Positions 7,439 to 29,478 of a DNA stretch of 49,903 nucleotides are shown one piece after another. Under the pieces are notes generated by a model. The model ran no database searches, was not told the DNA's origin, and worked only from the letters and a program-made list of their open reading frames with translations. The translations under genes and the position numbers were made by a program. The DNA lies in assembly GCA_023300105.1 (NCBI GenBank), contig JALZWM010000022.1:1-49903 (forward strand). Direction: 5' to 3'. Source of the DNA: Hellea sp. GTDB lineage: Bacteria > Pseudomonadota > Alphaproteobacteria > Caulobacterales > Maricaulaceae. Each line of letters opens with the position of its first letter. The first letter of the stretch is position 1.

Positions 7439-8356
7439 ATGAAACCGGTTGTTTTCATCGCGGGACCTACGGCGAGCGGGAAAAGTGCGTGGGCTGTCAA
7501 AATAGCTAAGAAGTACGGCGGCGAAATTATTAATGCCGACTCTATGCAGGTTTATAGTGATCTCCAAATATTGTCGGCTAGACCAACTCTCTCAGAAATG
7601 GAGGGCGTACCCCATCATTTGTTCGGGCATATCGCGGGTAGTGTGCGCTATTCTACCGGGCAGTGGATGCGTGAAGTTCAACCCGTTATTCTCGATTGTT
7701 TGGCGAGGGACGTTATGCCGATTTTAACTGGAGGAACAGGGCTTTACTTTAAAGCATTGCTTGAAGGTTTAGCCGAAATTCCTGCGATATCAGAGCAAAC
7801 ATTTAAGTATGTTCAAGTTAAACTTGAACAACACGGCATTGATTATTTAAGGGCTGAGGCTGACCGTGTTGATTCTGTCGCAGCGGCGCGAGTGCTGGGC
7901 AATGACCCTCAAAGGTTATCTAGAATTCTGTGCGTACATAAAGAGACTGGGAAAACCTTAACCGAGTGGCAATCTCGCACACGGCCTATAATACCAAAGC
8001 AGTTCTGTGCTTGTGCGGTGCTTATGCCCGACCGCTCTGCGCTTTATGAGCGTATCAATACCCGCTTTTCAAATATGATGAATAATGGTGGTCTTACTGA
8101 GGCTGAAACTGTCTTTCTGAAAGGCTTTGATTCATCTTTGCCGATCATGAAGGCCATAGGTTTGCAGCAATTAGGACCTTATTTTGAAGGCCGTATAACC
8201 TTGAGTAAGGCTGTTGAATTGGCGAGCCGAGATACGCGGCGTCTTGCGAAGCGACAATACACTTGGTTTAGGGGGCAAGTTGAGTATTGGCAAAGTGTAA
8301 CAAATAATTCTGATAAAGAATGGTTTGAGGCAAGAATATATCAAAAAATGAATTGA
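7439..8356 (+). CDS. miaA: tRNA dimethylallyltransferase
   Basis: MiaA transfers a dimethylallyl group to A37 of tRNAs that read codons beginning with U. The 305-residue protein has the P-loop GPTASGKS (8-15), the family signature INADSMQVY, the GGTGLYFKAL motif and the C-terminal RRLAKRQYTWFR block. Length is normal. It is the last gene of a likely degP-serB-miaA transcription unit; a hairpin and a strong terminator follow. Confidence 0.96.
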   Translation: MKPVVFIAGPTASGKSAWAVKIAKKYGGEIINADSMQVYSDLQILSARPTLSEMEGVPHHLFGHIAGSVRYSTGQWMREVQPVILDCLARDVMPILTGGTGLYFKALLEGLAEIPAISEQTFKYVQVKLEQHGIDYLRAEADRVDSVAAARVLGNDPQRLSRILCVHKETGKTLTEWQSRTRPIIPKQFCACAVLMPDRSALYERINTRFSNMMNNGGLTEAETVFLKGFDSSLPIMKAIGLQQLGPYFEGRITLSKAVELASRDTRRLAKRQYTWFRGQVEYWQSVTNNSDKEWFEARIYQKMN

Positions 8357-11352: not shown

Positions 11353-11873
11353 TGGCTGGTCAATATTCTTCTAGTCCAAACGCGCGAGGGAAAACGATTC
11401 GGGCTGTTTTTATTTTGTTCTTTTTGACAATTTTAGCTGCATTAAATTTAAACATTCTAGGCCAATCAGTTGCTCTGAGTTTGCTTCCTCTCATAGGAAT
11501 TTGCTTATGGCCGCGTTATGCTCATCCCGTAATCTCAATCATTGTAATATTTCTATTTGGACTTCTGTTAGATTTTTTAACAAATGATGCCTTGGGATTT
11601 AGAACCCTTATTTATCTGATAATTTTTTCTGTGTTTAGACCTGATACGCGGTCTAAACAGCACACATTTGGAACGGCTTTTGTACAATGGCTAGGGATAA
11701 TCATATTAGCTTTGGTAGCTGTTTACTTTCTGGGATGGGTCGGTCGCAGCGTTAGACCTGACCTTTTGTCCCTTGGGTATCAGGCTTTATTGACAACGAC
11801 ATTGTTCCCGTTGATTTATTTTATACGACATATCTTTAGGTATTTCCTTATTGATCCAGATGATCGTTATTGA
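11352..11873 (+). CDS. mreD: Rod-shape-determining membrane protein MreD
   Basis: This 173-residue, very hydrophobic protein has about five or six predicted membrane segments and a conserved-looking 'LFGLLLDFLTNDALGF' motif typical of MreD. Sequence conservation in the family is low, so position between mreC and pbp2 is the strongest support. It overlaps mreC by one base and shares TGATG with the pbp2 start. Confidence 0.88.
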   Translation: MAGQYSSSPNARGKTIRAVFILFFLTILAALNLNILGQSVALSLLPLIGICLWPRYAHPVISIIVIFLFGLLLDFLTNDALGFRTLIYLIIFSVFRPDTRSKQHTFGTAFVQWLGIIILALVAVYFLGWVGRSVRPDLLSLGYQALLTTTLFPLIYFIRHIFRYFLIDPDDRY

Positions 11874-24784: not shown

Positions 24785-25408
24785 ATGATTCATGACCCAC
24801 AAGACGTTTTAACTAACTATCTTATCCCGACAGTTGTAGAGCAGTCCAGCCGCGGCGAACGCGCTTTTGATATTTACTCACGGCTATTGCGTGACCGCAT
24901 CATTTTCCTCTCAGGCGTAGTTGAAGATGGCATGGCGGCGTCTATTACGGCGCAGCTTTTATTTCTTGAATCAGAGAACCCAAAAAAAGAAATTTCGATG
25001 TATATCAACTCCCCGGGTGGCGTTGTGACGGCTGGTATGGCGATTTATGATACAATGCAGTACATCAAGTCTCCTGTGTCTACAGTCTGTATGGGCCAAG
25101 CCTGCTCTATGGGCTCGCTGCTTTTAGCCGCTGGCGAAGCTGGTAAGCGTGTCGCTCTGCCGAATGCTCGCGTTATGGTTCATCAGCCTTCTGGTGGCTT
25201 CCGTGGTCAAGCGTCAGATATTCAGCGTCATGCTAACGATATCCTTGCGATGAAAAAGCGTTTGAATGAAATATACGTTCATCATACAGGTAAAAAATAT
25301 GCGACGATTGAAAAAACGCTCGACCGAGATCACTTTATGACGGCAAAAGAAGCGCAAGACTTTGGAATAGTTGATCACGTTTATGAAAAACGCGGTCAAG
25401 ACGAATAA
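24785..25408 (+). CDS. clpP: ATP-dependent Clp protease proteolytic subunit
   Basis: ClpP forms the double-heptamer protease chamber served by ClpX. The 207-residue protein has the catalytic triad Ser108 ([11 protein letters not shown]), His133 (VMVHQPSGG) and Asp182 (LDRDHF), and the N-terminal '[20 protein letters not shown]' conserved across ClpP. Length is normal. It lies between tig and clpX in the usual order, with its own upstream terminator and likely promoter. Confidence 0.98.
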
Positions 25409-25597: not shown

Positions 25598-26860
25598 ATG
25601 AGCAAAACCACAGGCGAGACAAAGAACACACTTTACTGCTCATTCTGCGGTAAAAGTCAGCATGAAGTCAGAAAGCTGATTGCGGGGCCAACTGTATTTA
25701 TCTGTGATGAATGCGTTGAGCTTTGTATGGATATCATCAAAGAAGAGGGCAAGGGCTCTATTGCTAAGTCTCAAGAAGGCGTCCCGACTCCGCAAGAGAT
25801 TTGCGATACACTGGATGATTACGTTATTGGTCAAAAATATGCCAAAAAAGTGCTCTCTGTGGCCGTTCACAATCACTACAAGAGACTCAATCACGCCACA
25901 ACGAACCAAGACGTTGAGCTGGCGAAGTCAAATATTCTTCTCGTTGGCCCAACAGGTTGTGGTAAAACTCTTCTCGCGCAGACATTAGCGCGTATTCTAG
26001 ATGTTCCGTTTACTATGGCTGATGCGACGACGCTTACTGAGGCGGGCTATGTCGGTGAAGATGTTGAAAACATTATCCTGAAATTACTTCAAAGTGCAGA
26101 TTACAACGTTGAGCGTGCGCAGCGTGGAATCGTCTATATTGACGAAGTCGATAAAATTAGCCGTAAATCAGACAACCCGTCCATCACACGCGATGTTTCG
26201 GGCGAAGGCGTTCAGCAGGCTCTACTCAAGATTATGGAGGGTACAGTCGCATCTGTACCGCCGCAGGGAGGCCGCAAGCATCCACAGCAAGAGTTCTTGC
26301 AAGTTGATACGACGAATATCCTTTTCGTCGTTGGAGGCGCATTTGCAGGGCTTGATAAAGTTATTTTGAACCGAGGCGAGGGTGCCTCAATTGGTTTTGG
26401 TGGCAAAGTCAAAGAACTTGATGATCGCCGTGTTGGTGATATTCTTGAGGGTGTTGAACCTGAAGATCTTACGCGTTTCGGTCTTATCCCTGAGTTTGTA
26501 GGACGGCTGCCCGTTATTGCAACTTTGACTGATTTGGACGAAGAGGCTTTAATCATTATCCTGACAAAGCCTAAAAATGCATTAGTCAAGCAATATCAAG
26601 CCTTATTTGAAATGGAAGACGTTCGTCTTTCCTTCTCTGATGATGCTTTGAAAGCTATTGCGAAGAGAGCCCTAGACCGTAAGACTGGTGCGCGTGGACT
26701 TCGTTCTATTATGGAAAATATTCTACTCGATAGTATGTATGATCTTCCTGCTTATGAAGGCGTGGAAGAAGTTGTTATCAATGGTGAAGTGGTCAGTGGG
26801 CAAGCAAAACCGCTACTTATTTACTCTGATAAAAAACAGACTAAAGAAAAAGCCTCTTAA
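25598..26860 (+). CDS. clpX: Clp protease ATP-binding unfoldase ClpX
   Basis: ClpX unfolds tagged substrates and feeds them to ClpP. The 420-residue protein has the N-terminal four-cysteine zinc domain (CSFCGKS ... CDECVELC), Walker A GPTGCGKT, pore loop GYVGED, Walker [10 protein letters not shown] and the conserved RGLRSIMEN sensor-2 region. In Alphaproteobacteria ClpXP degrades cell-cycle regulators such as CtrA, which is relevant to the CtrA-type box seen at 30479. Confidence 0.98.
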
Positions 26861-26905
26861 AGGCTGAATTTATGCAGTTAATAGGTGGTTTTGAGGATGT
26901 GATGT

Positions 26906-26934
26906 CTTGAAACAAGGCCTGTGTCATCCCACCT
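26906..26934 (+). promoter_or_regulatory. Candidate heat-shock (sigma32/RpoH) promoter of lon
   Basis: CTTGAAA (26906-26912), a 14-base spacer and TCCCACCT (26927-26934) closely resemble the sigma32 pattern CTTGAAA-N11-16-CCCCATNT. Start of transcription would fall near 26941, giving a leader of about 45 bases that holds the next hairpin. lon is a classical heat-shock gene, which supports the reading. Confidence 0.5.
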
Positions 26935-26943
26935 GTAAATGAT

Positions 26944-26965
26944 TAGGCGCATATGAATGCGCCTA
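26944..26965 (+). repeat. Perfect 9-bp hairpin in the lon leader
   Basis: TAGGCGCAT (26944-26952), loop ATGA and ATGCGCCTA (26957-26965) form a perfect stem ending 20 bases before the lon start. No T-run follows, so it is not a normal terminator. Upstream, 26883-26934 can fold as nested arms AGGTG/CACCT, GGATG/CATCC and CTTG/CAAG. Confidence 0.6.
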
Positions 26966-26985
26966 TAGATTGAATGAGATGATAT

Positions 26986-29385
26986 ATGTCTGAAACACAT
27001 TTATTCCCGATTTTGCCACTGCGCGATATCGTAGTTTTCCCTTTTATGGTTGTCCCGCTATTCGTTGGTAGGGAAAAGTCCATTAAGGCATTAGAAGATG
27101 TGATGGAGCAGGATAAGCGCATCCTATTGTTAACGCAAAAAAATGCTGAATCTGATGATCCTACTCAAGACGACATCTATCACCGTGGCTGCGTCGCGAA
27201 AATTCTACAGCTCTTGAAATTACCAGATGGGACAGTCCGTGTCTTAGTTGAGGGACAGGACCGCGCTGTTGTTGATGCGTTCACAGATAAAACTGAGTTT
27301 ATAGAAGCATATGCGGAAACAACGCCTTCAAAGTTTAGCGAGCCTGCGCTTATTAAAAAACTAGCAAAGCAAGTGACAGATACTTTTGAAACTTATGGAA
27401 AACTGAATAAGAAAATTGCAGAAGAAGTCGTGACTTCAGTTACTGAAACATCTGAGCCGTCTAAACTATCCGATGTTATTTCCGTTCATTTGAATGCTCA
27501 AATCGCAGAGAAGCAAATGCTCTTAGCTGAGGAAGAAGTATCTGTAAGGCTTAAGACAATTTTGGATTTAATCAACGGCGAAACGAGTGTTCTCAAAGTT
27601 GAGAAGAAAATCCGTGGCCGCGTGAAGCGTCAAATGGAAAAAACACAACGGGAATATTATTTGAATGAGCAAATGAAAGCTATTCAGACAGAGCTCGGCA
27701 ATGGCGATGCGCCTGATGAGTTTGCCGAACTTCAAGGTAAAATTGAAGAGACGAAGTTTACGAAAGAAGCCAAAGATAAAGTCGATGCGGAGGTTAAAAA
27801 GCTCAAGCAAATGAGCCCGATGTCGGCTGAGGCGAATGTATCACGTAACTACCTTGATTGGATGTTATCTGTGCCGTGGGGCAAGAAAAAGCGCATACAG
27901 CGTGACCTTAAGAAGGCACAAGAGATACTGGACGCAGATCATTATGGTCTCGATAAAGTTAAAGAGAGGATCATCGAACATCTAGCCGTTCAGACGCGTA
28001 CGAAAAAAGTTAAAGGGCCTATTATTTGCCTTGTGGGCCCTCCAGGCGTTGGTAAGACATCATTGGGTAAGTCAGTTGCCCGCGCAACGGGCCGTGAATT
28101 TGTACGCGTGTCTTTAGGGGGCGTTAGAGACGAGTCTGAAATACGGGGGCACCGTAGAACTTATATCGGGTCTATGCCGGGCCGTATTATCCAGTCGATG
28201 AAAAAGGCCAAATATAATAATCCATTGTTCTTATTCGATGAGATTGATAAAATGGGCTCAGATCACCGTGGGGACCCATCGTCTGCGCTGCTTGAGGTCT
28301 TGGACCCTGAGCAAAATGATACGTTCAGCGATCATTACCTGGATGTTGATTATGATTTGTCTGATGTAATGTTTATTACAACGGCTAATTCCTTAAATAT
28401 GCAGCAACCTCTTTTGGACCGCATGGAAATTATTCGTATTCCTGGATATACAGAAGACGAGAAAATTGAGATTGCGACCCGCCACTTACTGCCTGAGACA
28501 ACAACAGAGCATGGCTTTAAAAAAGGCGAGTTCACCGTCAAAGAGGAGGCTCTGCGCGATATCATTCGTTATTACACGCGTGAAGCAGGGGTTCGGAGTT
28601 TAAAACGTGAAATCTCACAACTCGCGCGTAAGGCCCTTAAGAAGATTGTGTCTGATGAGGCGAAGAAAATTACCGTGTCTTCTAAGAACATCGAAGACTT
28701 TCTTGGCGTCAAGAAATTCAGATTTGGGCAAACTGATACGGAGGATCAAGTTGGTATCGTTACTGGCCTTGCTTGGACATCCGTTGGTGGAGACATATTG
28801 ACAATAGAATCCGTTTCTATGCCGGGTAAGGGCAAGATGACGGTTACCGGTAACCTTAAAGATGTTATGAAAGAATCGATTTCTGCCGCGAATAGCTATG
28901 TTCAATCGCGCGCGCCCGAGCTTGGCATTAGCCCGCGTCAATTCCGCAGTACGGATATACATGTTCACATGCCTGAGGGCGCGGTACCAAAGGATGGTCC
29001 AAGTGCGGGTGTTGGTATGGTCACGGCTATGGTGTCTGTTCTTACGGGTATTCCTGTGCGTAAAGATATCGCGATGACAGGCGAGATAACTTTGCGCGGA
29101 CGCGTGCTGCCAATTGGGGGACTTAAGGAGAAGTTATTAGCCGCATTACGGGGGGGTGTTGTGACGGTTTTGATTCCCCAAGATAATGCGAAGGACTTGG
29201 CAGACATCCCTGATAACGTTAAAAATGCACTTGAAATCATCCCTGTAAGCACCGTGGATGAGGTTTTGAAGCATGCACTGACGTCTAAACCTAAGAAGAT
29301 TAAATGGACCGCTACTGACGAAGCTGCATTAGCGGGAATTATTATGAATGAAGGTGTTGACCTTGGCGGAAAATCTGCGCATTAA
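26986..29385 (+). CDS. lon: ATP-dependent protease Lon
   Basis: Lon degrades misfolded and regulatory proteins in the cytoplasm. The 799-residue protein has the N-terminal substrate domain (1-~200), helical linker, AAA+ module with Walker [10 protein letters not shown] and Walker [11 protein letters not shown], and a C-terminal protease domain with the Ser-Lys dyad Ser673 ([10 protein letters not shown]) and Lys714 ([13 protein letters not shown]). Length fits the LonA family. A tRNA-Val gene begins 17 bases after its stop with no terminator between. Confidence 0.98.
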
Positions 29386-29402: not shown

Positions 29403-29478
29403 GGGCGGTTAGCTCAGCTGGTAGAGCATCTCGTTTACACCGAGAGGGTCAGCGGTTCGAACCCGTTACCGCCCACCA
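29403..29478 (+). tRNA. tRNA-Val (anticodon TAC)
   Basis: Acceptor GGGCGGT/ACCGCCC, D arm GCTC..GAGC, anticodon stem TCTCG/CGAGA with loop TTTACAC (anticodon TAC), T arm AGCGG/CCGTT with TTCGAAC, discriminator A and encoded CCA (29476-29478). It lies so close to lon that it may be cut from the lon transcript. Confidence 0.97.

Follow-up and report, generated by a model that had tools for sequence, protein, structure and literature searches.

A predicted heat-shock promoter and a candidate 5′-terminal stem-loop between clpX and lon in an alphaproteobacterium

A gap of 125 bp separates the clpX and lon genes in the stretch of DNA analysed here (49,903 nt, referred to as the window). The question raised by this locus is whether lon can be expressed separately from clpX and, if so, what a short and apparently structured leader could contribute to its message.

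The promoter of lon

The gene order is clpP (24785–25408), clpX (25598–26860, forward strand, stop codon at 26858–26860), lon (26986–29385, forward strand, ATG start codon at 26986) and a tRNA-Val gene at 29403. The NCBIfam clpP and clpX models identified the first two genes (for clpX, together with the ORF table), and lon, encoding endopeptidase La of 799 aa, matched NF008053 and TIGR00763, both above the cut-off. The host is an alphaproteobacterium and, among the matches listed, the nearest named lon genes are those of Hellea sp. MAG-168 (76 %) and Robiginitomaculum sp. NORP39 (75 %). The sequence of the gap is single-copy in the genome. An intrinsic terminator for clpX, namely a G+C-rich hairpin with a run of T after it, was not found on the forward strand between clpX and lon, nor was a sigma-70-like promoter found within 26500–27300.

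The initial annotation had proposed a sigma32 promoter made up of CTTGAAA and TCCCACCT (26927–26934), and all of the stretches that it quoted lie where it placed them. The motif and its conservation beyond chance support a promoter of this type, but the proposed frame was one base off. The better frame is CTTGAA-N16-CCCACCT (26906–26934), in which the predicted −35 element CTTGAAA (26906–26912, forward strand) is followed after 15 nt, or 16 nt when counted from CTTGAA, by the predicted −10 element CCCACCT (26928–26934, forward strand). The 9 lon loci recovered from the genus all have the form CTTGAAA-N15-CCCAC(C/T)T, with an identical −35 element and either CCCACCT or CCCACTT at equal spacing.

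The full lon set was drawn from these 9 genomes (10 were searched), 62 other members of the family and two named loci. One locus with a partial lon lacking the start (L173) was dropped, leaving 72 that were scored. The motif CTTGAA, a spacer of 14 or 15, and (C/T/G)CCAC(C/T)T scored at least 14 in 66 of the 72 upstream regions, where the 99th percentile of shuffled sequences was 12.0; these scores are optimistic, as the matrix was trained on the lon set that it scored. All 66 have a spacer of 14 or 15, and this near-constancy further backs the promoter. The loci scoring below 14 were L002, L118, L121, L125, L126 and L172, and the gaps of L002 and L125 are identical. A genome-wide scan with CTTGAAN{15,17}CCCAYNT gave five hits, compared to one for the reversed pattern. 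Three of the five precede lon, hrcA (assigned from a 104 aa fragment matching TIGR00331) and an interrupted hsp20, and the other two are L177, which falls inside a reading frame, and L178. With the spacer set to 15–16, there were 39 matches in 10 genomes of the genus and 7 for the reversed pattern.

The consensus for RpoH1 of Sinorhizobium meliloti, as quoted in PMC4843759, is CTTGAA-N15-16-CCTATAT. Like this and other alphaproteobacterial RpoH (sigma-32) promoters, the candidate lon promoter has the same −35 element, a spacer of 16 and a CC-rich −10 element, and it precedes a known heat-shock gene. Unlike the S. meliloti consensus, its −10 element is CCCAC(C/T)T, and its dependence on the sigma factor is a prediction. 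In Caulobacter, PMC8119881 describes a sigma32-dependent increase in Lon expression and no sigma32 induction of clpX. On sequence grounds, it is very likely that lon has its own RpoH/sigma-32-type heat-shock promoter. Such a promoter is expected, and it explains how lon could be induced without clpX. Dependence on RpoH is a prediction for this organism, as is the start site: transcription probably begins at 26941–26942 on the forward strand, 7–8 nt past the end of the −10 element, as judged from the −10 element and from where hairpins start in dnaK and lon leaders.

Inverted repeats overlap lon promoters both in the window and in other genera. In the window, nested arms spanning 26883–26934 (forward strand) enclose it, pairing AGGTG with CACCT (26883–26887 and 26930–26934), GGATG with CATCC (26895–26899 and 26925–26929) and CTTG with CAAG (26906–26909 and 26913–26916). 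The arms had been put forward as part of the structure before lon, and they are present at these positions. However, their stability is at chance level (z −1.27, a value equalled or exceeded in stability by 22 of 200 shuffles), and as they hold the −35 and −10 elements of the promoter itself they would be absent from the RpoH transcript. They were rejected as a leader structure on both counts. Among six congeners, the arms out-pair 93 % of permutations, and this is driven by four of them (L084–L087), in which about 10 pairs or more can form.

In other genera (for example L153, L144, L164, L146, L158, L115 and L135), a strong inverted repeat holds the TTGA of the lon −35 element in its loop. 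The repeat has 9 pairs in L153, where it is perfect, and in L164, and its sequences are unrelated across genera. It folds equally on both strands (−0.76 and −0.83), unlike the leader stem described below, and 16 of 65 lon loci have a value below −1.64. One role for it was considered and rejected. It was not linked to the absence of a clpX terminator for which it might substitute (p 0.51; canonical terminator in 8 loci, none in 38, and the clpX end unplaced in 19 of 65). A separate idea, in which read-through from clpX would hide the lon ribosome site, was dropped because the effect was too small (mean unpaired 0.43 versus 0.48, the difference having the predicted sign in 17 of 24 loci).

The stem-loop in the lon leader

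Between the promoter and lon is a perfect 9-bp stem, TAGGCGCAT/ATGCGCCTA, with the loop ATGA (26944–26965, forward strand). It ends 20 nt upstream of the lon ATG. A weak Shine–Dalgarno-like sequence, TGAGATG (26975–26981, forward strand), in which GAGA is invariant in the 9 rows from the genus, is outside the stem, and the ribosome site lies 9 nt beyond it. The first paired base is 10 nt past the end of the −10 element, about 2–4 nt inside the predicted transcript, and because of this an RpoH transcript should open with the hairpin. In folding predictions, the 31 nt at 26938–26968 reach −14.3 kcal/mol (z −5.2), with none of 200 shuffles equally stable, and a segment of 34 nt starting at the predicted transcription start gives z −5.0. 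A small hairpin is thus the probable 5′ terminus of the lon mRNA. The window contains 3 perfect stems of at least 9 bp against 1.4 expected; on its own the 9-bp stem would attract little notice, and its position and covariation are what set it apart. The other two perfect stems, of 9 and 10 bp, are at 7810–7830 and 11632–11659.

The initial annotation had suggested looking for compensatory changes in the clpX–lon gap of relatives, and these are present in six congeners (L082–L087). The stem core of the six, aligned by hand, takes forms such as GGCGCAT/ATGCGCC, GGCGTAT/ATACGTC and GATACGT/GCGTATC, among others. Five of the 7 core pairs are altered on both sides, and standard pairs are found in 40 of 42 cells, the failures being an A–C in L086 and a G–A in L085. 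The arms of each sequence out-pair 98 % of the 720 permuted pairings (p 0.019, for six related sequences; all p values in this work are uncorrected). Judged from these sequences, the stem changes between close relatives and its pairing is mostly kept. In the more distant congeners L088–L090, the left arm is partly kept and the stem is weak or absent.

Over the whole family, 17 of 65 lon leaders had a 5′-end fold with p<0.05 (L127, which is too short, was left out), compared to 1 of 61 control segments taken upstream of the −35 element. The earlier description of the leader as short and structured is therefore borne out by the two-sided changes in the six congeners and falls short in L088–L090 and in the 48 of 65 leaders that are not significant. 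When the leaders were aligned at the −10 element (again 65, with L127 kept and L001 left out), the fold profile peaked at +11, with a mean z of −1.03, 30 % of leaders below −1.64 and a genus mean of −0.94 (se 0.20). A second signal at −37, around the −35 element, is equal or stronger (genus mean −1.32, se 0.32), and the 37 longer leaders give a third, at +53 (mean z −0.98). In the 64 leaders used to count first paired bases and to compare strands, the start of the significant stems is scattered, with 9 of 15 lying 9–12 nt after the −10 element, and the transcribed strand folds slightly better than its complement (−0.88 versus −0.66).

Hairpins after other heat-shock promoters

In the genus, a hairpin also comes directly after the promoters of dnaK, groES and hsp20. 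Significant hairpins were found in all 6 groES leaders, all 5 hsp20 leaders and 1 of 3 clpB leaders. These counts exclude a groES locus with a misread start (L180) and a second groES paralogue (L186), and, for hsp20, a locus without a promoter (L202), one with a misread start (L206) and the interrupted copy (L208). One clpB locus (L201) was kept, with its start misread and its promoter in place. As 5 of the 6 groES promoters and 1 of the 5 hsp20 promoters score low (5.9–7.7) with the matrix trained on lon, these were identified by their position and by CTTG.

The clearest signal was obtained for dnaK. In 74 leaders from 18 genera of the family (a locus with no start found, L267, a partial gene, L196, and two paralogues, L197 and L198, were left out), there is a sharp peak at +8, where the mean z is −1.91 and 65 % of leaders are below −1.64, compared to 1–24 % at offsets away from the peak. 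The hairpin is significant in 40 of the 74, and in 35 of these 40 the first paired base is 9–12 nt past the end of the −10 element. The inverted-repeat signal at the −35 offset was not seen in the dnaK profile. For seven dnaK stems from the genus, the arms of each out-pair 99.7 % of 5040 permutations. The transcribed strand folds better than the complement for dnaK (−1.91 versus −1.22) and groES (−5.56 versus −4.43), as it does slightly for lon, which points to an RNA structure that includes G–U pairs. The strands do not differ for hsp20 (−2.79 versus −3.04) or clpB (−2.03 versus −2.09), and the hsp20 hairpins retain much of their sequence.

The CIRCE operator, TTAGCACTC-N9-GAGTGCTAA, is bound by HrcA before groESL and is known for its kept sequence. 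The groES hairpin is CIRCE-like in 4 of the 6 leaders, and CIRCE has another function. The remaining two (L179 and L181) have lost CIRCE, and in its place stands an unlike hairpin of 10 pairs, some of them G–U.

Leaders behind a different type of promoter served as a control, namely 44 EcfG-type sites found by pattern alone at 30 nepR loci, on both strands, in the same family. At +11, these have a mean z of −0.57 (se 0.22) with 20 % below −1.64, and there is a similar dip at −31. The excess over this control is decisive for dnaK; for lon it is modest and not decisive. The hairpin is also confined in other ways. The promoter is present before hslV, hrcA and a glutaredoxin gene, all named from fragments, with 12, 24 and 28 nt, respectively, from the −10 element to the first ATG, and the stretch after it shows no clear hairpin, folding at −0.3 to −3.5 kcal/mol (calculated without a shuffle test). 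A search of 144 genomes at the level of the class gave a dnaK match in 134 (137 places), of which 27 places were left out and 110 upstream regions were analysed. The promoter exceeded the 99th percentile of shuffles in 81 of the 110, and these 81 leaders from outside the family show no 5′ hairpin peak (immediately downstream of the promoter the mean z is −0.35). On this evidence, the hairpin habit belongs to the family and does not extend to the class.

The only HSP20 match found in the genome, on contig C18 (63051–63332, reverse strand), has an internal TAG and a TAA and looks like a pseudogene. It keeps an RpoH-type promoter at 63561–63588 (L174, L208). Of the 10 genomes of the genus, only 3 gave a ClpB match with an E value of at most 1e-200, and this genome is not one of them.

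Possible roles of the stem-loop

We consider it about an even chance that the lon leader carries a 5′-terminal stem-loop of a kind that shields some heat-shock mRNAs from decay initiated at the 5′ end, and is one case of a habit of the family. Heat or protein damage would raise lon separately from clpX via the RpoH promoter in the gap. The transcript, starting at about 26941, would fold immediately into the 9-bp stem-loop, leaving 2–3 unpaired bases at the 5′ end. An end paired in this way would be a poor substrate for the 5′-pyrophosphohydrolase and for 5′-tethered RNase E, and the message would be longer-lived. PMC3997798 and a review (PMC7509114) attribute the stabilizing effect of 5′ structure to the dependence of RppH and RNase E on single-stranded 5′ ends. 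The stem-loop before lon would then most likely act like the stabilizing 5′ stem-loops of ompA and papA in E. coli, which it resembles in being short, in lying a few nt from the (here predicted) 5′ end and in leaving the ribosome site outside. It differs from them in that hairpins of unrelated sequence recur on several genes of one regulon. The protective role fits because the stem is 2–3 nt from the 5′ end and the ribosome site is 9 nt beyond it. The initial annotation had also raised an RNase site, and the very 5′ position suits protection better than cleavage. The structure itself is supported; from it we infer protection from decay and a benefit under heat.

An RNA thermometer had also been suggested, in which the heated leader would melt and expose the lon ribosome site. 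ROSE and FourU are RNA thermometers, and the lon leader is like them in being structured and on a heat-shock gene, besides being short; when 30 nt of coding sequence are included, the region from the Shine–Dalgarno sequence to the ATG pairs with early lon codons and its mean unpaired probability is 0.38 at 10 °C and 0.55 at 50 °C. This change at the start codon is only gradual, however, and its level at 37 °C varies from 0.42 to 0.79 among the six congeners. Unlike in ROSE and FourU, the ribosome site is outside the 9-bp stem, and the stem is too stable in silico for melting under heat shock, keeping 8.4 of its 9 pairs at 70 °C. A scan of the window with Rfam at gathering thresholds found two tRNAs and no other RNA family. 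The suggestion is not upheld, and we regard a thermometer as very improbable. A DNA operator, in which the stem would be a palindrome that a heat-shock repressor binds in the manner of CIRCE at groESL, is also unlikely. What recommends an operator is the CIRCE-like palindrome before groES of four congeners, with much the same spacing from the promoter, together with the hsp20 hairpins, whose sequence is largely retained and whose two strands fold equally well. The lon and dnaK stems are like CIRCE in being inverted repeats that follow RpoH-type promoters of these genomes with similar spacing. A protein-binding site should keep its letters, whereas the stem before lon, TAGGCGCAT-ATGA-ATGCGCCTA, is not CIRCE and differs in sequence between close relatives with its pairing kept, as the dnaK stems also change. 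The better folding of the transcribed strand for lon and dnaK and the single occurrence of the gap sequence in the genome count against an operator too.

An effect of the hairpin on transcription itself, through promoter escape or through less pausing or fewer R-loops, could account for its tight placement in dnaK (35 of 40 significant leaders at 9–12 nt), but protection of the 5′ end would require equal placement, and we think such an effect improbable. Somewhat unlikely, finally, is that the hairpin arose by chance or neutral drift and only the promoter matters. The number of perfect stems in the window (3 against 1.4 expected), the weak or missing stem in three congeners and the modest signal for lon relative to the EcfG control would all be accommodated by chance; against it stand the changes on both sides of 5 of 7 core pairs, a stem that lies close to the promoter and the strong peak that dnaK leaders show across the family.

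The family habit would take in dnaK, groESL, hsp20, lon and perhaps clpB, with hairpins of unrelated sequence at about equal distance from the promoter. A more general rule is a tentative proposal, and we think it somewhat less likely than not: in this family, RpoH transcripts for the major chaperones and Lon might begin with a stem-loop at a near-fixed distance, its shape kept and its sequence free, that shields or labels these messages while bulk mRNA decays under heat. Terminal stem-loops are known on single mRNAs, and one common to several transcripts of a stress regulon, at a near-fixed position, would add a simple post-transcriptional layer to heat-shock control. Our literature search, which covered the titles and opening lines of open-licence papers, returned no report of a shared 5′-terminal hairpin on alphaproteobacterial RpoH transcripts. 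A hairpin before groESL of A. tumefaciens is reportedly described in an older paper.
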